Shown here piece by piece: positions 4,386 through 36,978 of a stretch of 64,000 nucleotides of DNA. The notes beneath the pieces are model-generated. The model saw only the letters and a list, made by a program, of their open reading frames with translations, was not told the DNA's origin and did no database searches. A program made the position numbers and the translations under genes. Position 1 is the stretch's first letter, and each line of letters opens with the position of its first letter. Origin of the DNA: Gemmatimonadaceae bacterium (GTDB lineage Bacteria > Gemmatimonadota > Gemmatimonadetes > Gemmatimonadales > Gemmatimonadaceae); assembly GCA_013697785.1 (NCBI GenBank), contig JACCWE010000144.1, positions 23,557-87,556 of the forward strand. The letters are read 5' to 3'.

Positions 4386-4412
4386 AAAAAATGCCCAGTG
4401 CACGCGCGGGCA
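4386..4412 (-). terminator. Intrinsic terminator-like hairpin between SAM-II element and metH
   Basis: Minus strand TGCCC-GCGCGTGCACT-GGGCA followed by TTTTTT. Confidence 0.65.
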
Positions 4413-4417
4413 CTGAG

Positions 4418-4472
4418 CCGGCGCTTTAGCGGAATGTTTTACGTGGCCGCAATTTGCCGTAAATCGCCACGA
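4418..4472 (-). promoter_or_regulatory. SAM-II (metA-type) riboswitch candidate upstream of metH
   Basis: Minus strand TCGTGGCGATTTACGGCAAATTGCGGCCACGTAAAACATTCCGCTAAAGCGCCGG: P1 CGTGGC/GCCACG, conserved GATTT, TTGC, TAAACA-like and GCTAAAG blocks, loop CGGC able to pair with 3' GCCG as pseudoknot. Confidence 0.85.
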
Positions 4473-4545
4473 ATCAATTATGGAGCAAGCTAGCAACGAG
4501 ACAGACGCGCAACAAGCGCAATCGCAGGTGGGTGGTGGACGAGCT

Positions 4546-12168: not shown

Positions 12169-12253
12169 GCCATCGCGAAGAGACGGAATCGTCCTCTGCT
12201 GACGATCTCCCACCGCACCACCACCGAGCGGCGCGATCGCGGAGCCAACTGCC

Positions 12254-12343
12254 CGCGACAAAGGCAAAGCCGTCGAAAGGCGGCGACGCAAAGCCAACGA
12301 GGCTTCGGCGCCCAGTGAGTGCGCCATGCCGGTCGGGTTGCCG
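12254..12343 (+). promoter_or_regulatory. c-di-GMP-I (GEMM) riboswitch
   Basis: GCGACAAAGGCAAAGCCGTCGAAAGGCGGCGACGCAAAGCCAACGAGGCTTCGGCG...GCCGGTCGGGTTGCCG: canonical GGCAAA-stem-GAAA-stem, GACGCAAAGCC, and GGGTTGCCG blocks. Confidence 0.95.
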
Positions 12344-12362
12344 TTGACCGGAGACTCAACCA

Positions 12363-13763
12363 ATGCGCGCATCACGCATCGCATTCGCCGCGATCTTCAT
12401 CGCGGCCGCGGCCTGCACCGATTCCACCTCCCCCGCAGCCGACTCACTCACCTCCGCCCAGCTGACGAAGCCGCCGAGAAAATCCGGCGCGAGCGCCGCG
12501 GCCACCGTTCCCGCCTCGCTCTACAGTGGCTACTCGCCGACCTCGCCACACTGGTCGCACATCACGACGATGATGACCGACTTCTACTACTCCTGGACCA
12601 CGACCGAGCGCGCGTGGGGGGGCGCGCACTACGATTTCGCGATGTCGGGCACGGGCTCCGCGTGGCGCGCCACGAATCCCTCCGTCGGTCACTATCCCTA
12701 CGCGCTCTCGTGGACGACATTGACCACTTCGGGCAGCCTCGCCTCGTCGTACTACGCCGACATGAAGAGCTGGTTCTCTACGCGGCCGCAGTACGCGCTC
12801 GAGAAAGCATTTGTGCACAAAAAGGGAAGCGCCGGCGACTCGGCCAGCCGCATCCACTTCAGTCGTTGGGGCTCCAACAGATGGGCGATCAATCCCGCCG
12901 ATGCCGGCGCGATCGCTTACAACGTGAGCCGCATTCAGCGCGTCGTCGGCTCCGAAAGTGGCGTCTTCTTCGATGAGGCGTCCACCGGCGACATCAACAA
13001 TTGGCTGCCGCCGACGCGAGAGTTCACTACCGGCGCGACTTACTTCTCAGCGCTCACCAAGCTCGTTGCCGCGATGCGATCGGGAATCGGGGGCAAACGC
13101 ATCCTCCTGAATCTCGCCGAGTACATGACGCCAGCGGATTCGGCAGCGGCGGTTGCGGCTGGCGGCGTGCACCTCGAGATGTTCAACAACTTCAAGCAGT
13201 CGTCGATGATCTCGCGTTGGGTCTGGGTGGGGCACCTGACCACCGCCGGCGTCTTCGTCGACTTCGTCAGCACGTATTCGACGCAGGACATGGCGGGGAT
13301 GGCCACATCGTATCCGAAGGGTAACTCGACGACGAACGTTCAGCGCGCGAAGCTGTGGGAGCTCTCGAGCTACTACCTCGCAGTCGGAGCTACGCCGAAA
13401 CTCTTCGCGCTTCAGCTCGAGAATCAATGGAACACGCCCTACTCGAAGCTGTGGACAAAGGCGCAGGAAGCGAACATCGGACACCCGCTCGCGATTCGCG
13501 TGCAGGTCGCGCGTGGCACCGATCCGCAGGGCAATCCATACGTCGTCTACAACCGTGATTTCGATCGCGCTCTCATCATTCTGCGTCTTCAGACTGGGTG
13601 GAACGCCCAGACGTACGGCGATGGCACTGCCATTCCGGTTGTGCTTCCGGGCGGAGAACGCTGGCTTCCGCTTAACGCCGATGGCACCGTCGGGGTCGCG
13701 ATCACCTCGTTGAACCTGCGCAACAGCGAAGCTGCGATTCTGCTCAAGGGCAGCAAAATGTAG
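12363..13763 (+). CDS. Secreted putative glycoside hydrolase-like protein (GHL15-like?), paralog 1
   Basis: Signal/lipoprotein-like N-terminus (MRASRIAFAAIFIAAAACTDS); shares PHWSHI, FYYSW, NPxxGxYPYAL, WxINPxDxGxxAY, FFDE, QEANIGHP and C-terminal FDRALIILRLQTGW blocks with 28681-30687 and 32156-33838. Confidence 0.65.
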   Translation: MRASRIAFAAIFIAAAACTDSTSPAADSLTSAQLTKPPRKSGASAAATVPASLYSGYSPTSPHWSHITTMMTDFYYSWTTTERAWGGAHYDFAMSGTGSAWRATNPSVGHYPYALSWTTLTTSGSLASSYYADMKSWFSTRPQYALEKAFVHKKGSAGDSASRIHFSRWGSNRWAINPADAGAIAYNVSRIQRVVGSESGVFFDEASTGDINNWLPPTREFTTGATYFSALTKLVAAMRSGIGGKRILLNLAEYMTPADSAAAVAAGGVHLEMFNNFKQSSMISRWVWVGHLTTAGVFVDFVSTYSTQDMAGMATSYPKGNSTTNVQRAKLWELSSYYLAVGATPKLFALQLENQWNTPYSKLWTKAQEANIGHPLAIRVQVARGTDPQGNPYVVYNRDFDRALIILRLQTGWNAQTYGDGTAIPVVLPGGERWLPLNADGTVGVAITSLNLRNSEAAILLKGSKM

Positions 13764-28680: not shown

Positions 28681-30687
28681 CTAAGTTGTTCGCTTCTTGA
28701 TCAGAATCGCCGCCTCCGCATTCCTCAGCTTGATGGTGGTCACGGGTGAGCCGAGGGTCCCGTCGGCGTGCAGAGGAACCCACGTCTCGCTCGATGGAAG
28801 TGGGATCGAGATGGCTGAGGCATCGTCGTAGCGTTGCGTTCCCCATCCCGTTTGTGGCCGCACTATCACGAGCGCACGATCGAAATCGCGCTGAAATACA
28901 GCCACCCGCTGACCGAACGGATCGGTGCTCACTACGGACTCTGACAGCTGCTGACGGGTGGCCGTCGGGTGTCCGATGTTTGCCTCCTGCGCCGTTATCC
29001 ACACCGTCGAGAAGGGGCGGCTCCATTCGTTCACGAGCTGAAGCTGCAGCTTGTCAGGCGAATGGGGGACGACCATGTAGTAACTCGCGAGCTCCATCAT
29101 CTTGATCCGATGGAATGCACTGTCTGCGCTACCACCCAGACGCAATTTCACGGAATTCATATCCGAGTAGTCGAGAGCGTCGACGAAGTTCACGGACACC
29201 GAAGCGCCGAGCATCTTGTCGATCCAACTCCAGGTGGCGGGCAGCCCGGTGTAGAGCGGATTGTTCGCCTTCTCCATGTGAGTGGCACCGGCCGCGCTGA
29301 CGTCCGCGAAATCGGGATCGAAGTTGTACATCCCCGTATTTGGCTGCAGCATGGTCGCTCCTATTGCGTTCTTGAGCGTGCGAAGCAGCGCCGCGTAGTC
29401 GGTAAAATACTGGCCGCTGGGCGGCCAGCTGGTGGCGCTGCTCGTATATTCGCTCGAGCGGCCAGTCGAGTCCTTCAAAAAGGTTGCGAGATCTCCCGAT
29501 GCCTGAACATCGATGAACAGTCCATCCTGGCCCAACCCCAAACGTCGGAAACGATCCGTTTGGTAGGCGATGAGGCCTGGATCCCCTGGGTTAATTACCC
29601 AGACGTATGAGTTCCAACCATACGGCTTCAGGCGATGTGCGGCGTCGGCAGGCTGACCGAGGCGATGCAGGAACGCGGTCTCAATGTTGTACTGCGTATG
29701 CGCGGAATACCATCTCACCGCATCATCGTACCACTGGCTGGCGGGGAGGCCGGTTGACGGCGTCGCGGAGGGTAGCACGGTGAAGCCGAGGAGCACGTAC
29801 GGATAATTCTGGATCGTTGGGTTTACGGCTTTCCACGCGGCAGCACTGCCTGACATCGAGAGGTCGTAATGCTGTCCCGCCCATTGCCGCTCAACGCTGT
29901 TCCACGAGTAATAGAAATCCGTGACGGCGGTGCGGATGTGCGACCAGTGCGGCGACACAGCACTGTATCCGTTATACAGCGAGCCGGCGGACGTGGGTGG
30001 GAGCGGCGGCGGAGGTGGCGGCGGGGCCGGCTGATTCGGCGTCTCTGGTGCGGGTGGGTGCGCCACGCTGGCGCCAACAACGGTCAGTTGCGCCGTAGCC
30101 TCATTAGAAGCCGTATGCGCGAGAATGTTGACCGAGCCGGTCGTAACACCGGTGACCGCGCCAGTCGAGTCGACGCTCGCCACCGATGGGTCGGCGCTCG
30201 TCCACGTCACTCGTACGTTGGCAAGCGGGTGATTATTGACGTCCGTGACTGACGCCTGTAAGCGGAGCGAACTGTGAACGGAGACCTGCGCGGTTCCAGG
30301 ATTCACGCTCACCCACGTTGGCGTGGGCGGTGTGTTGGACACAATCACGAGCGCCGAGACGCGTCGGTGCCCCGACGCGATCGTGACTTGCGCGCTCCCG
30401 ATGGAGTGCGCGCTCACAGTTCCATCGCTGGCTACTGATGCGATTGAAGAATCGCTCGTGCTCCACAGTGCGGGTTGACCGGCGATGTCACGACCGGCCG
30501 AATCCAGCATGCGAACGGAGAGCAACAGCGACTGGCCGGGAGGCATCGTCGGCTGCGCCGGCGAGATGATCAACCATCGCGCGAGCGACTGTGGCGTAGT
30601 TGCAGAAGCCGACGGATCGGTCATTGCCGAGCAGGCGACGAGAGTCGCGCAGCTCGCGAGCGCGAGTGCGTAGCGAGAAATCGACAT
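28681..30687 (-). CDS. Secreted glycoside hydrolase-like protein (GHL15-like?) with N-terminal BIG2-type Ig domains, paralog 2
   Basis: Lipoprotein-like N-terminus; WSTSDSSIASVASDGTVSAHSIGSAQVTI and WTSADPSVASVDSTGAVTGVTTGSVNI (BIG2); C-terminal half collinear with 12363-13763. Confidence 0.7.
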   Translation of the reverse strand: MSISRYALALASCATLVACSAMTDPSASATTPQSLARWLIISPAQPTMPPGQSLLLSVRMLDSAGRDIAGQPALWSTSDSSIASVASDGTVSAHSIGSAQVTIASGHRRVSALVIVSNTPPTPTWVSVNPGTAQVSVHSSLRLQASVTDVNNHPLANVRVTWTSADPSVASVDSTGAVTGVTTGSVNILAHTASNEATAQLTVVGASVAHPPAPETPNQPAPPPPPPPLPPTSAGSLYNGYSAVSPHWSHIRTAVTDFYYSWNSVERQWAGQHYDLSMSGSAAAWKAVNPTIQNYPYVLLGFTVLPSATPSTGLPASQWYDDAVRWYSAHTQYNIETAFLHRLGQPADAAHRLKPYGWNSYVWVINPGDPGLIAYQTDRFRRLGLGQDGLFIDVQASGDLATFLKDSTGRSSEYTSSATSWPPSGQYFTDYAALLRTLKNAIGATMLQPNTGMYNFDPDFADVSAAGATHMEKANNPLYTGLPATWSWIDKMLGASVSVNFVDALDYSDMNSVKLRLGGSADSAFHRIKMMELASYYMVVPHSPDKLQLQLVNEWSRPFSTVWITAQEANIGHPTATRQQLSESVVSTDPFGQRVAVFQRDFDRALVIVRPQTGWGTQRYDDASAISIPLPSSETWVPLHADGTLGSPVTTIKLRNAEAAILIKKRTT

Positions 30688-32155: not shown

Positions 32156-33838
32156 CTATTGAAAGAGAATTGCAGCGTCGACGTTCCGCAACATCACACG
32201 CGTTACCGAAGCTCCGAGCGTACCGTCCCGATGAAGCAGTCGCATCGGCTTTGACAGCGGAACTTCGATAGCGGTGTCCTCGCCGTAGACAGTCGGTCGC
32301 CAAGTCACGGCCGGTCGCACGAGCACGAGCGCGCGCTCGAATTCGCGAGCGTAGATCCGATAGCTCTGTCCTTTCGAATCGACACCCTTGGCGATAATGT
32401 GTCTCGCCCGCACAGGATGTCCAACATCCACCTCCACCGCGCTCGCCCACGCTTTGTCCGGTCGAATATTCCAGAAATTCTGCTGATCGAACGAGAGCTG
32501 CTGAGGATCGGCGCCCACCGACATGTAGTAGCTGGCGAGCTGCGTCATTTGACCGCGCTCCGTGGGCGCGTTGTAGAGCCCTCCATCGAAGCTGGGATGA
32601 TTGTGCATGACGCCAGCCCATTCGGTATACGAGATCGCCGTCACGAACTCCGTGTAGACTCCACTCGCCAGCAGATGATCGATCTGGGTCCAGCGTCCCT
32701 CCGTTCGATCGCCAAATGGATAGTTCGTACGTTCGAGCTGTGCGCCGCCGCCCGCCACGACGATTGCAGAATCCGTTGGTGTCCAGTATTCCGCGATGTT
32801 GATCAGCAGTATGCGCGGAGCAATTGCCGCGTGAATGTGCGCGATCATCGCGGTTTCCGACGCGAGGTACGCCGCGCCGGTCGCGAATTCGTCCGTCGGC
32901 TTGATCGCGCCGTACATCGAGCCTCCGAATTCATCGAGAAATACGCCTGCATGTCCCTGCGCGATACGAACGAAACGATCAGCCTGATACGCGCGCGAGC
33001 CTGCGTCGCCCGGATTGATGAGCCATCGATATGACTCATTCTTGAACGCTACGCGATGAGTCGAATCGTGACCACCTCGATGCAGGTATGCGGATTCGTA
33101 ATCATACTTGGGATTCAACGCATACCAGCGAATCATGTCGGCCGTAAACGCCGTCGTCAGACTCGCGTTGGATTTTCCGGCGGGACTTTGCACGACCTCG
33201 TACTGCAACGCGTATGGGAAATATCGAATCGTGGGATTCACATTTTTCCACGCCGCCGCCGGCCCCGACATGATCGCATCCACTCGTGGACCGAGGAAAC
33301 CGATCGTCGCGTCGCGGTCCGATGGAGACGCATAGGCCGAATAGAAATCCGTGTAGAATACGCTTATGTGCGAGTAATGTGGGGATTGAGTCGCTCCGCT
33401 CCGGGCGAGAGCTCTCGGCGCCACCTCGTTGATGTGCGCCGGCCGCGCTGCATTGGCGTCATTTTTCGTAGTGCCCACGGCGGAGGGCGAATACACGCTC
33501 ACCTGAGTCGACACTACGCTCGGTCCGATCCTGCCGCTCACTCCGGTAACGCCGGCGCCGGTGGCAGTGATGACTCCATTGGCGTCGACACGGGCGATCG
33601 CAGGATTGTCAGTGGACCAGGCAACGGCGCGTTTAACAACGTGACCGGCGGAATCACGAACCGTCGCCCGAGCGGTGGTCGATTGCCCCACGTCGAGCGA
33701 GCGACGTGCGGAGTCGATCACGATCGTCTCGGGCTGTTGTGCGGAGACGGGAGCGCAGGCGACAACAGCGCTCAGGGTGAGAAGCACCACGAGACGATTC
33801 GCGGTGTGTGCAACCAATCCGGCGATATGCTTTCGCAA
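32156..33838 (-). CDS. Secreted glycoside hydrolase-like protein (GHL15-like?) with one BIG2-type domain, paralog 3
   Basis: AWSTDNPAIARVDANGVITATGAGVTGVSG (BIG2); HYSHISVFYTDFYSAY, AWKNVNPTIRYFPYAL, GVFLDEFG, VDVGHPVRAR shared with the two paralogs. Confidence 0.7.
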   Translation of the reverse strand: MRKHIAGLVAHTANRLVVLLTLSAVVACAPVSAQQPETIVIDSARRSLDVGQSTTARATVRDSAGHVVKRAVAWSTDNPAIARVDANGVITATGAGVTGVSGRIGPSVVSTQVSVYSPSAVGTTKNDANAARPAHINEVAPRALARSGATQSPHYSHISVFYTDFYSAYASPSDRDATIGFLGPRVDAIMSGPAAAWKNVNPTIRYFPYALQYEVVQSPAGKSNASLTTAFTADMIRWYALNPKYDYESAYLHRGGHDSTHRVAFKNESYRWLINPGDAGSRAYQADRFVRIAQGHAGVFLDEFGGSMYGAIKPTDEFATGAAYLASETAMIAHIHAAIAPRILLINIAEYWTPTDSAIVVAGGGAQLERTNYPFGDRTEGRWTQIDHLLASGVYTEFVTAISYTEWAGVMHNHPSFDGGLYNAPTERGQMTQLASYYMSVGADPQQLSFDQQNFWNIRPDKAWASAVEVDVGHPVRARHIIAKGVDSKGQSYRIYAREFERALVLVRPAVTWRPTVYGEDTAIEVPLSKPMRLLHRDGTLGASVTRVMLRNVDAAILFQ

Positions 33839-36027: not shown

Positions 36028-36978
36028 ATGACGGAAGACGGTCTCACCCCTCGACCTCCTCTCATTCTGCTCGCCAACGAGCACGAATGGGCCGCGCGTT
36101 CCCTCGAGACCATCCTCGGACCGCACGGCTTCGCCGTCCTGCGAGCATACACCGGTCGCCAGTTGCTCGGCCTGGTGCGGAGCGCGCAACCCGATCTGAT
36201 CATGGTGGACGTGCGGCTCCCGGATATGCGTGGCGTCGACGTCTGCCGCGCGCTTCGCGACGATCCGCACTTCCCCGAGGAGACGCCGATCATCTTCACC
36301 AGCTCGGGCACGCCTGAGCGGCACGAGCGGCTCGAGGCGTTCAAGGCCGGCGCCTGGGAGATCGTCAGCCAGCCCCTCGACGCCGAAGTCCTGCTGCTCA
36401 AGCTCGATGCGTACATGCGCGGCAAGCGCGCCGTAGATCGTTTGCGCGATGAGAGTCTGCTCGACCAGGCAACGGGCCTGTATAACATGCAGGGGATGGT
36501 TCGCCGAGCGCGCGAGATGTCTGCCGATGCGCAGCGCCTCCACGCGCCGATCTCATGCGTCGCGTTCACTCCCGTCGCCACTACGGACAGCGAGATGACG
36601 TCGCCGGCGATCACCGAGATCATGGTCGAGAGGCTCGGCGCCATCGTGCGCCGCACCGGACGCGCGTCGGATGCGATCGGCCGCCTCGGACCCACCGAGT
36701 TCGCGATCATCGCGCCTGCCACCGAAGAGCCTGGCGCGATCCGCATGATGGAGCGGCTCGAGTCACAGCTCTCCGACATGCTCACGCAGCCCGACGGCAT
36801 CGCGCAGCGCGTGGAGCTGCGCGCCGGCTACTGCTCGGTTGCGGATGGTGCGAAATCGGCCGTAGATGCGGTGGAGATGCTGCTGCGCGCGAACTCCGCA
36901 CTGCGCGACGCGCGCAGCGCCCAGCGCAGCGACGAGCTGCGCAGCTACGACAGCTCGCCGCTCAGGTTCGCCCTGTAA
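36028..36978 (+). CDS. Response regulator with degenerate GGDEF domain (REC-GPTEF)
   Basis: REC: DLIMVDVRLPDMRGVDVC, IIFTSS; GGDEF start DQATGLYNMQGM; signature RASDAIGRLGPTEFAII. Confidence 0.85.
   Translation: MTEDGLTPRPPLILLANEHEWAARSLETILGPHGFAVLRAYTGRQLLGLVRSAQPDLIMVDVRLPDMRGVDVCRALRDDPHFPEETPIIFTSSGTPERHERLEAFKAGAWEIVSQPLDAEVLLLKLDAYMRGKRAVDRLRDESLLDQATGLYNMQGMVRRAREMSADAQRLHAPISCVAFTPVATTDSEMTSPAITEIMVERLGAIVRRTGRASDAIGRLGPTEFAIIAPATEEPGAIRMMERLESQLSDMLTQPDGIAQRVELRAGYCSVADGAKSAVDAVEMLLRANSALRDARSAQRSDELRSYDSSPLRFAL

Follow-up and report, generated by a model that had tools for sequence, protein, structure and literature searches.

A c-di-GMP-I riboswitch closely preceding a predicted surface lipoprotein gene in Gemmatimonadota, and a candidate translational ON mechanism

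Vc1, located upstream of gbpA in Vibrio cholerae, is a class I c-di-GMP riboswitch that acts positively (PMC4744006), and it is the nearest functional parallel to the riboswitch described below. The direction in which a c-di-GMP riboswitch acts is not transferable between species (PMC6366702). In the literature we searched, outside of which lie most subscription papers, we found neither a description of a phylum-wide pattern of such riboswitches before secreted-protein genes nor, within the same scope, any paper that combines Gemmatimonadetes, c-di-GMP and riboswitches. The switch type is well known, and its repeated use before secreted-protein genes in Gemmatimonadota is apparently undescribed.

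The window (the whole stretch of 64,000 nucleotides analysed) carries a match to the c-di-GMP-I riboswitch family (RF01051) at positions 12253-12345 of the plus strand. With cmscan over the whole window, this match spans the full length of the model (1-87) and reaches 71.2 bits, where the gathering score is 35 (window-wide E 5.6e-12); a narrower search returned the same score. An initial annotation, made from the letters alone, had proposed a c-di-GMP-I riboswitch here and named an RF01051 covariance-model search as the check; the score of about twice the cut-off bears the proposal out. In the cmscan alignment the P2 and P3 helices, the GAAA tetraloop and the conserved core are all present, with every model pair standard and none broken. 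The hallmark blocks that had been listed can likewise all be located in the sequence, namely GGCAAA (12263-12268, +), the P2 hairpin (12269-12284, +) in which six pairs close the GAAA loop at 12275-12278, the GACGCAAAGCC core (12285-12295, +) and the GGGTTGCCG block (12335-12343, +). We take G12263 (the first G of the GGC at 12263-12265, +), A12290 and C12341 to be the likely equivalents of the ligand-contact bases G20, A47 and C92 in the general Vc2 numbering, and the expected G, A and C are found at the positions matched in this way. RF01051 was also retained as the best family of its clan at this site, in preference to the variant RF03167 (c-di-GMP-I-GGC). The element is a genuine c-di-GMP-I riboswitch, ordinary and well supported by every sequence and structural feature tested, and it presumably binds c-di-GMP.

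The ATG at 12363 stands on the same strand, 17 nt after the end of the aptamer, which agrees with the close upstream placement originally noted, and only 4 nt separate the aptamer from the Shine-Dalgarno sequence GGAG (12350-12353, +). The orthologues at L038 and L039/L065 share this arrangement of aptamer and gene. No intrinsic terminator, meaning a G+C-rich hairpin followed by a U-tract, was found on the plus strand between 11900 and 12500, again as first described. A scan for sigma-70-type promoters gave no match, a result that says little for Gemmatimonadota. Elsewhere in the window, a SAM_alpha (SAM-II) riboswitch (4406-4480, -; 40.4 bits) precedes a co-directional methionine-synthase-like gene. 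Behind this riboswitch comes a hairpin with a U-tract (GTGCCCGCGCGTGCACTGGGCATTTTTTG), a transcriptional platform that contrasts with the c-di-GMP leaders.

The gene behind the aptamer (12363-13763, +) encodes a predicted lipoprotein of 466 amino acids, whose N-terminus, MRASRIAFAAIFIAAAACTDSTSP, reads as a lipoprotein-type signal that contains the lipobox AAAC. Searches against Pfam, NCBIfam and PDB sequences returned nothing for this protein besides a chance-level Big_11 match, and PF14885 (GHL15, hypothetical glycosyl hydrolase family 15) was absent at E values up to 10. PF14885 is matched by two of 16 aligned family members (best E 3e-6), and the same alignment holds three invariant positions, D204, N250 and E272, that could be acidic barrel residues. 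As to the TIM-barrel fold expected of GHL15, a structure model built from eight sequences is of low confidence (pLDDT 53.8, with residues 1-174 below 50), and a Foldseek search with it returned mostly glycoside hydrolases at TM-scores of about 0.2-0.3; a single-sequence AlphaFold model (pLDDT 31.6) was unusable. Given the GHL15 matches of these relatives and the Foldseek results, ‘glycoside-hydrolase-like’ is a fair but distant label. The initial annotation of a secreted glycoside-hydrolase-like gene is therefore upheld as to secretion, through the predicted lipobox, whereas the link to glycoside hydrolases is a distant one that runs through relatives. The family is present in 10 of 399 sampled genomes of the phylum, and a riboswitch directly upstream was detected only in two paralogue groups of the window’s genus, with none for family members in other genera.

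The host genome (3.8 Mb in 169 contigs) has Gemmatimonadota MAGs as its close relatives by protein. Around the aptamer lie genes for an XrtA-system polysaccharide deacetylase (TIGR03006), an XrtA-associated FemAB protein (TIGR03019), a glycosyltransferase, an O-antigen-ligase-type protein and chain-length/export-like proteins, and these XrtA-type and polysaccharide genes mark an exopolysaccharide region. A response regulator with a degenerate GGDEF domain, in which LGPTEF replaces GGDEF, is encoded at 36028-36978 (+) beside the exopolysaccharide genes, with no riboswitch detected before it. A second c-di-GMP-I riboswitch (RF01051; 30711-30804, -; 67.0 bits) precedes a paralogous lipoprotein gene (28681-30687, -) whose product has Big_2 domains and the same C-terminal domain. 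A search upstream of a third paralogue (32156-33838, -) found no riboswitch. RF01051 has seven matches in the genome, three of which precede members of the lipoprotein family (two of them in the window, the third at the end of a contig). The remaining four stand before genes for a Big_2 protein, a subtilase with a PKD domain, a Big_2 protein with a weak glycosyl-hydrolase match and an M15-type peptidase.

Two further observations concern these copies. The protein starts read at the ends of two contigs of this genome (L002 and L047, on C4 and C64) overlap. They probably belong to a single gene, which would be the third paralogue of the lipoprotein family to follow a riboswitch. The match 12 nt before the M15-type peptidase gene (L007, contig C28, 1501-1577, -) is weak at 37.5 bits and has a UUCG-type loop where the others have GAAA; it is possibly a divergent GEMM RNA or one with a different ligand, and it is uncertain, as it was missing when the loci were later scanned at the gathering score.

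Unconstrained folding of the window leader yields a 31-nt hairpin at 12331-12361 (+), in which the 3' strand of the aptamer and the linker pair through GGU:ACC, GGGUU:GACUC and CCG:CGG. This alternative hairpin pairs the Shine-Dalgarno bases directly and excludes the outer part of P3. The Shine-Dalgarno is unpaired with a probability of about 0.33 in the free fold versus 0.87-0.89 when the aptamer pairs are forced. C12341 is paired with the Shine-Dalgarno base G12351 in the predicted hairpin, and therefore the ligand and the Shine-Dalgarno would compete for this presumed C92 equivalent. The initial annotation had instead paired GGTTG (12336-12340) with CAACC (12357-12361), leaving the Shine-Dalgarno in the loop. 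These strands are indeed complementary, but their helix has an ensemble probability of about zero in the folded leader, which is predicted to use another register of the same strands. The suggestion of translational control is thus supported by folding, in that the aptamer 3' strand pairs with the linker, and it is the exact helix that fails. A CCGGUC:GACCGG helix was likewise set aside, at an ensemble probability of 0.02-0.03.

All pairs of the hairpin are kept in the leader of L065 (57% protein identity; the same leader as L039), where C-G stands in place of the C-A mismatch of the window and two pairs are changed to G-U. The L038 leader (82% protein identity) keeps the hairpin minus its outermost pair. 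Comparative support is thin, as it comprises three related leaders with few substitutions.

Because the hairpin hides the Shine-Dalgarno and folding of the aptamer opens it, translational ON control is predicted. We favour, with modest confidence, a translational ON switch fused to the ribosome-binding site of the surface lipoprotein gene; for this locus, both the direction and the translational level of control are read from folding models. At low c-di-GMP, the aptamer 3' strand (12331-12343) would pair with the linker (12349-12361) and GGAG would be hidden. When c-di-GMP is present, P3 and the ligand pocket would take up the 3' strand, the Shine-Dalgarno would become exposed and the lipoprotein would be translated. 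At high c-di-GMP the product may then bind or modify exopolysaccharide, a role that we infer for the protein.

The XrtA/PEP-CTERM-type polysaccharide genes around the locus are in keeping with an ON switch, as are the lack of a plus-strand terminator, the precedent of the positively acting Vc1 and the position of all seven genome matches, each shortly before a gene whose product has a signal-like N-terminus. Several folding results speak against it, among them the small mean gain in Shine-Dalgarno accessibility over the phylum leaders described below. The forced aptamer comes out 10-11 kcal/mol less favourable in the folding model, a cost that the ligand and tertiary contacts would have to pay, unless folding is co-transcriptional. 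In addition, the Shine-Dalgarno of L038 is open in both states, that of L065 is equally closed in both (the start codon alone opens), and the AUG of the window gene is paired in both states when 40 nt of coding sequence are included.

RF01051 matches occur in 209 of 399 Gemmatimonadota genomes, and we read 98 of the higher-scoring matches, including those of the present genome, together with their downstream genes. In 87 of these, 10-35 nt separate the aptamer from the chosen start codon downstream of it, and in one the distance is 45 nt, the others being farther away or unassigned; an automatic tally within 40 nt gives 88, one of which is spurious. Genes classed as lipoprotein-like, in that they start close by and encode both a hydrophobic N-terminus and a lipobox-like motif, follow 65 of the 98 matches versus 6 of 600 random positions handled by the same gene picker, a control run under the same rule since the scoring of the picker favours such genes. 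The 98 are top-scoring matches without phylogenetic weighting, so that 65 of 98 is no unbiased estimate. Among 87 downstream products there are 43 with Big_2, 20 with Big_1, seven subtilase, six response-regulator, five GGDEF and five GH26 assignments. Response-regulator/GGDEF proteins similar to the one in the window are encoded 12 nt behind a c-di-GMP-I riboswitch at L019, L023, L024, L025 and L086 elsewhere in the phylum; the GGDEF motif looks degenerate in the response-regulator group examined, and these proteins may therefore not be metabolic enzymes.

Forcing the aptamer in 79 leaders raises Shine-Dalgarno accessibility only slightly, by a mean of 0.06, with ten leaders rising and two falling by more than 0.2. 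A general helix between aptamer tail and linker was rejected, as linkers pair with their own tails no better than swapped linkers do (p 0.61, in a test whose power is limited by the nearly invariant tail) and do not outdo shuffled linkers either (mean z 0.18, se 0.10). These negative tests leave a phylum-shared covarying hairpin unsupported, and together with the weak mean change in accessibility they make the window hairpin a local solution and no demonstrated phylum rule. Our broader proposal is tentative, and we would place it somewhat short of an even chance. Gemmatimonadota may possess a phylum-wide class I aptamer regulon of surface lipoproteins (Ig-like, subtilase and polysaccharide-active), with next to nothing between the aptamer and the ribosome-binding site to which it is fused. 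At least at the window locus, Shine-Dalgarno and ligand would compete for the same aptamer strand, and in some genera the switch would also precede a degenerate-GGDEF response regulator.

Other mechanisms could be built on the same aptamer. A folded aptamer ending just 4 nt from the Shine-Dalgarno might itself block ribosome loading, such that high c-di-GMP would lower expression, and the Shine-Dalgarno lies directly at the aptamer end in several members of the phylum. The functional class I switches of Clostridioides difficile are OFF switches, though they act via transcription termination (PMC6366702). Folding, however, has the window Shine-Dalgarno opening rather than closing upon aptamer formation. 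Moreover, c-di-GMP usually favours surface and polysaccharide proteins such as the targets here, and we judge translational OFF control to be unlikely, if a serious contender. We give a smaller chance to control that acts not on ribosome access but through Rho-dependent termination or RNA decay. This would fit with the lack of a visible intrinsic terminator and with Vc1, whose own mechanism is unresolved and which has neither a terminator nor an anti-Shine-Dalgarno (PMC4744006), but a 17-nt linker offers scant room for a Rho loading site, and the similarly short start-codon distance in 87 of the 98 phylum members points to the ribosome-binding site.

It is more improbable still that the aptamer senses another dinucleotide, as an RF03167-type variant or a cGAMP-type GEMM RNA. 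RF03167 is the best family for the orthologue leader L039 and for one leader in L046, whereas the window element is best matched by RF01051 and has the G, A and C expected of the pocket under the general Vc2 numbering. A translational ON switch remains our preferred reading.

Gemmatimonadota is a little-studied phylum, and it gains here a concrete and testable c-di-GMP output, in which surface lipoproteins and polysaccharide enzymes are probably switched at translation. The short-linker leaders are also compact test cases for control of translation by class I aptamers, given that the mechanism of Vc1 has yet to be settled (PMC4744006).

Compared with known systems, the window aptamer resembles the RF01051 class in its full-length match, both hairpins, the GAAA tetraloop and the pocket blocks. 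It does not itself differ from the class, and what stands out is the linker of only 17 nt to the start codon. The likeness of the downstream protein to GHL15 (PF14885) is shared through two of 16 relatives, the protein itself having no match. As in the window, the Vc1/gbpA system places a class I aptamer without a terminator before the gene for a secreted protein, the gbpA product being carbohydrate-binding (PMC4744006). There, however, the aptamer occupies the first 111 nt of the transcript and the start codon follows only at 225-244 nt from its start, so that more than 100 nt separate the two, against 17 nt in the window. Furthermore, no anti-Shine-Dalgarno is seen in Vc1 (PMC4744006), whereas the window leader has a predicted hairpin that would hide its Shine-Dalgarno.
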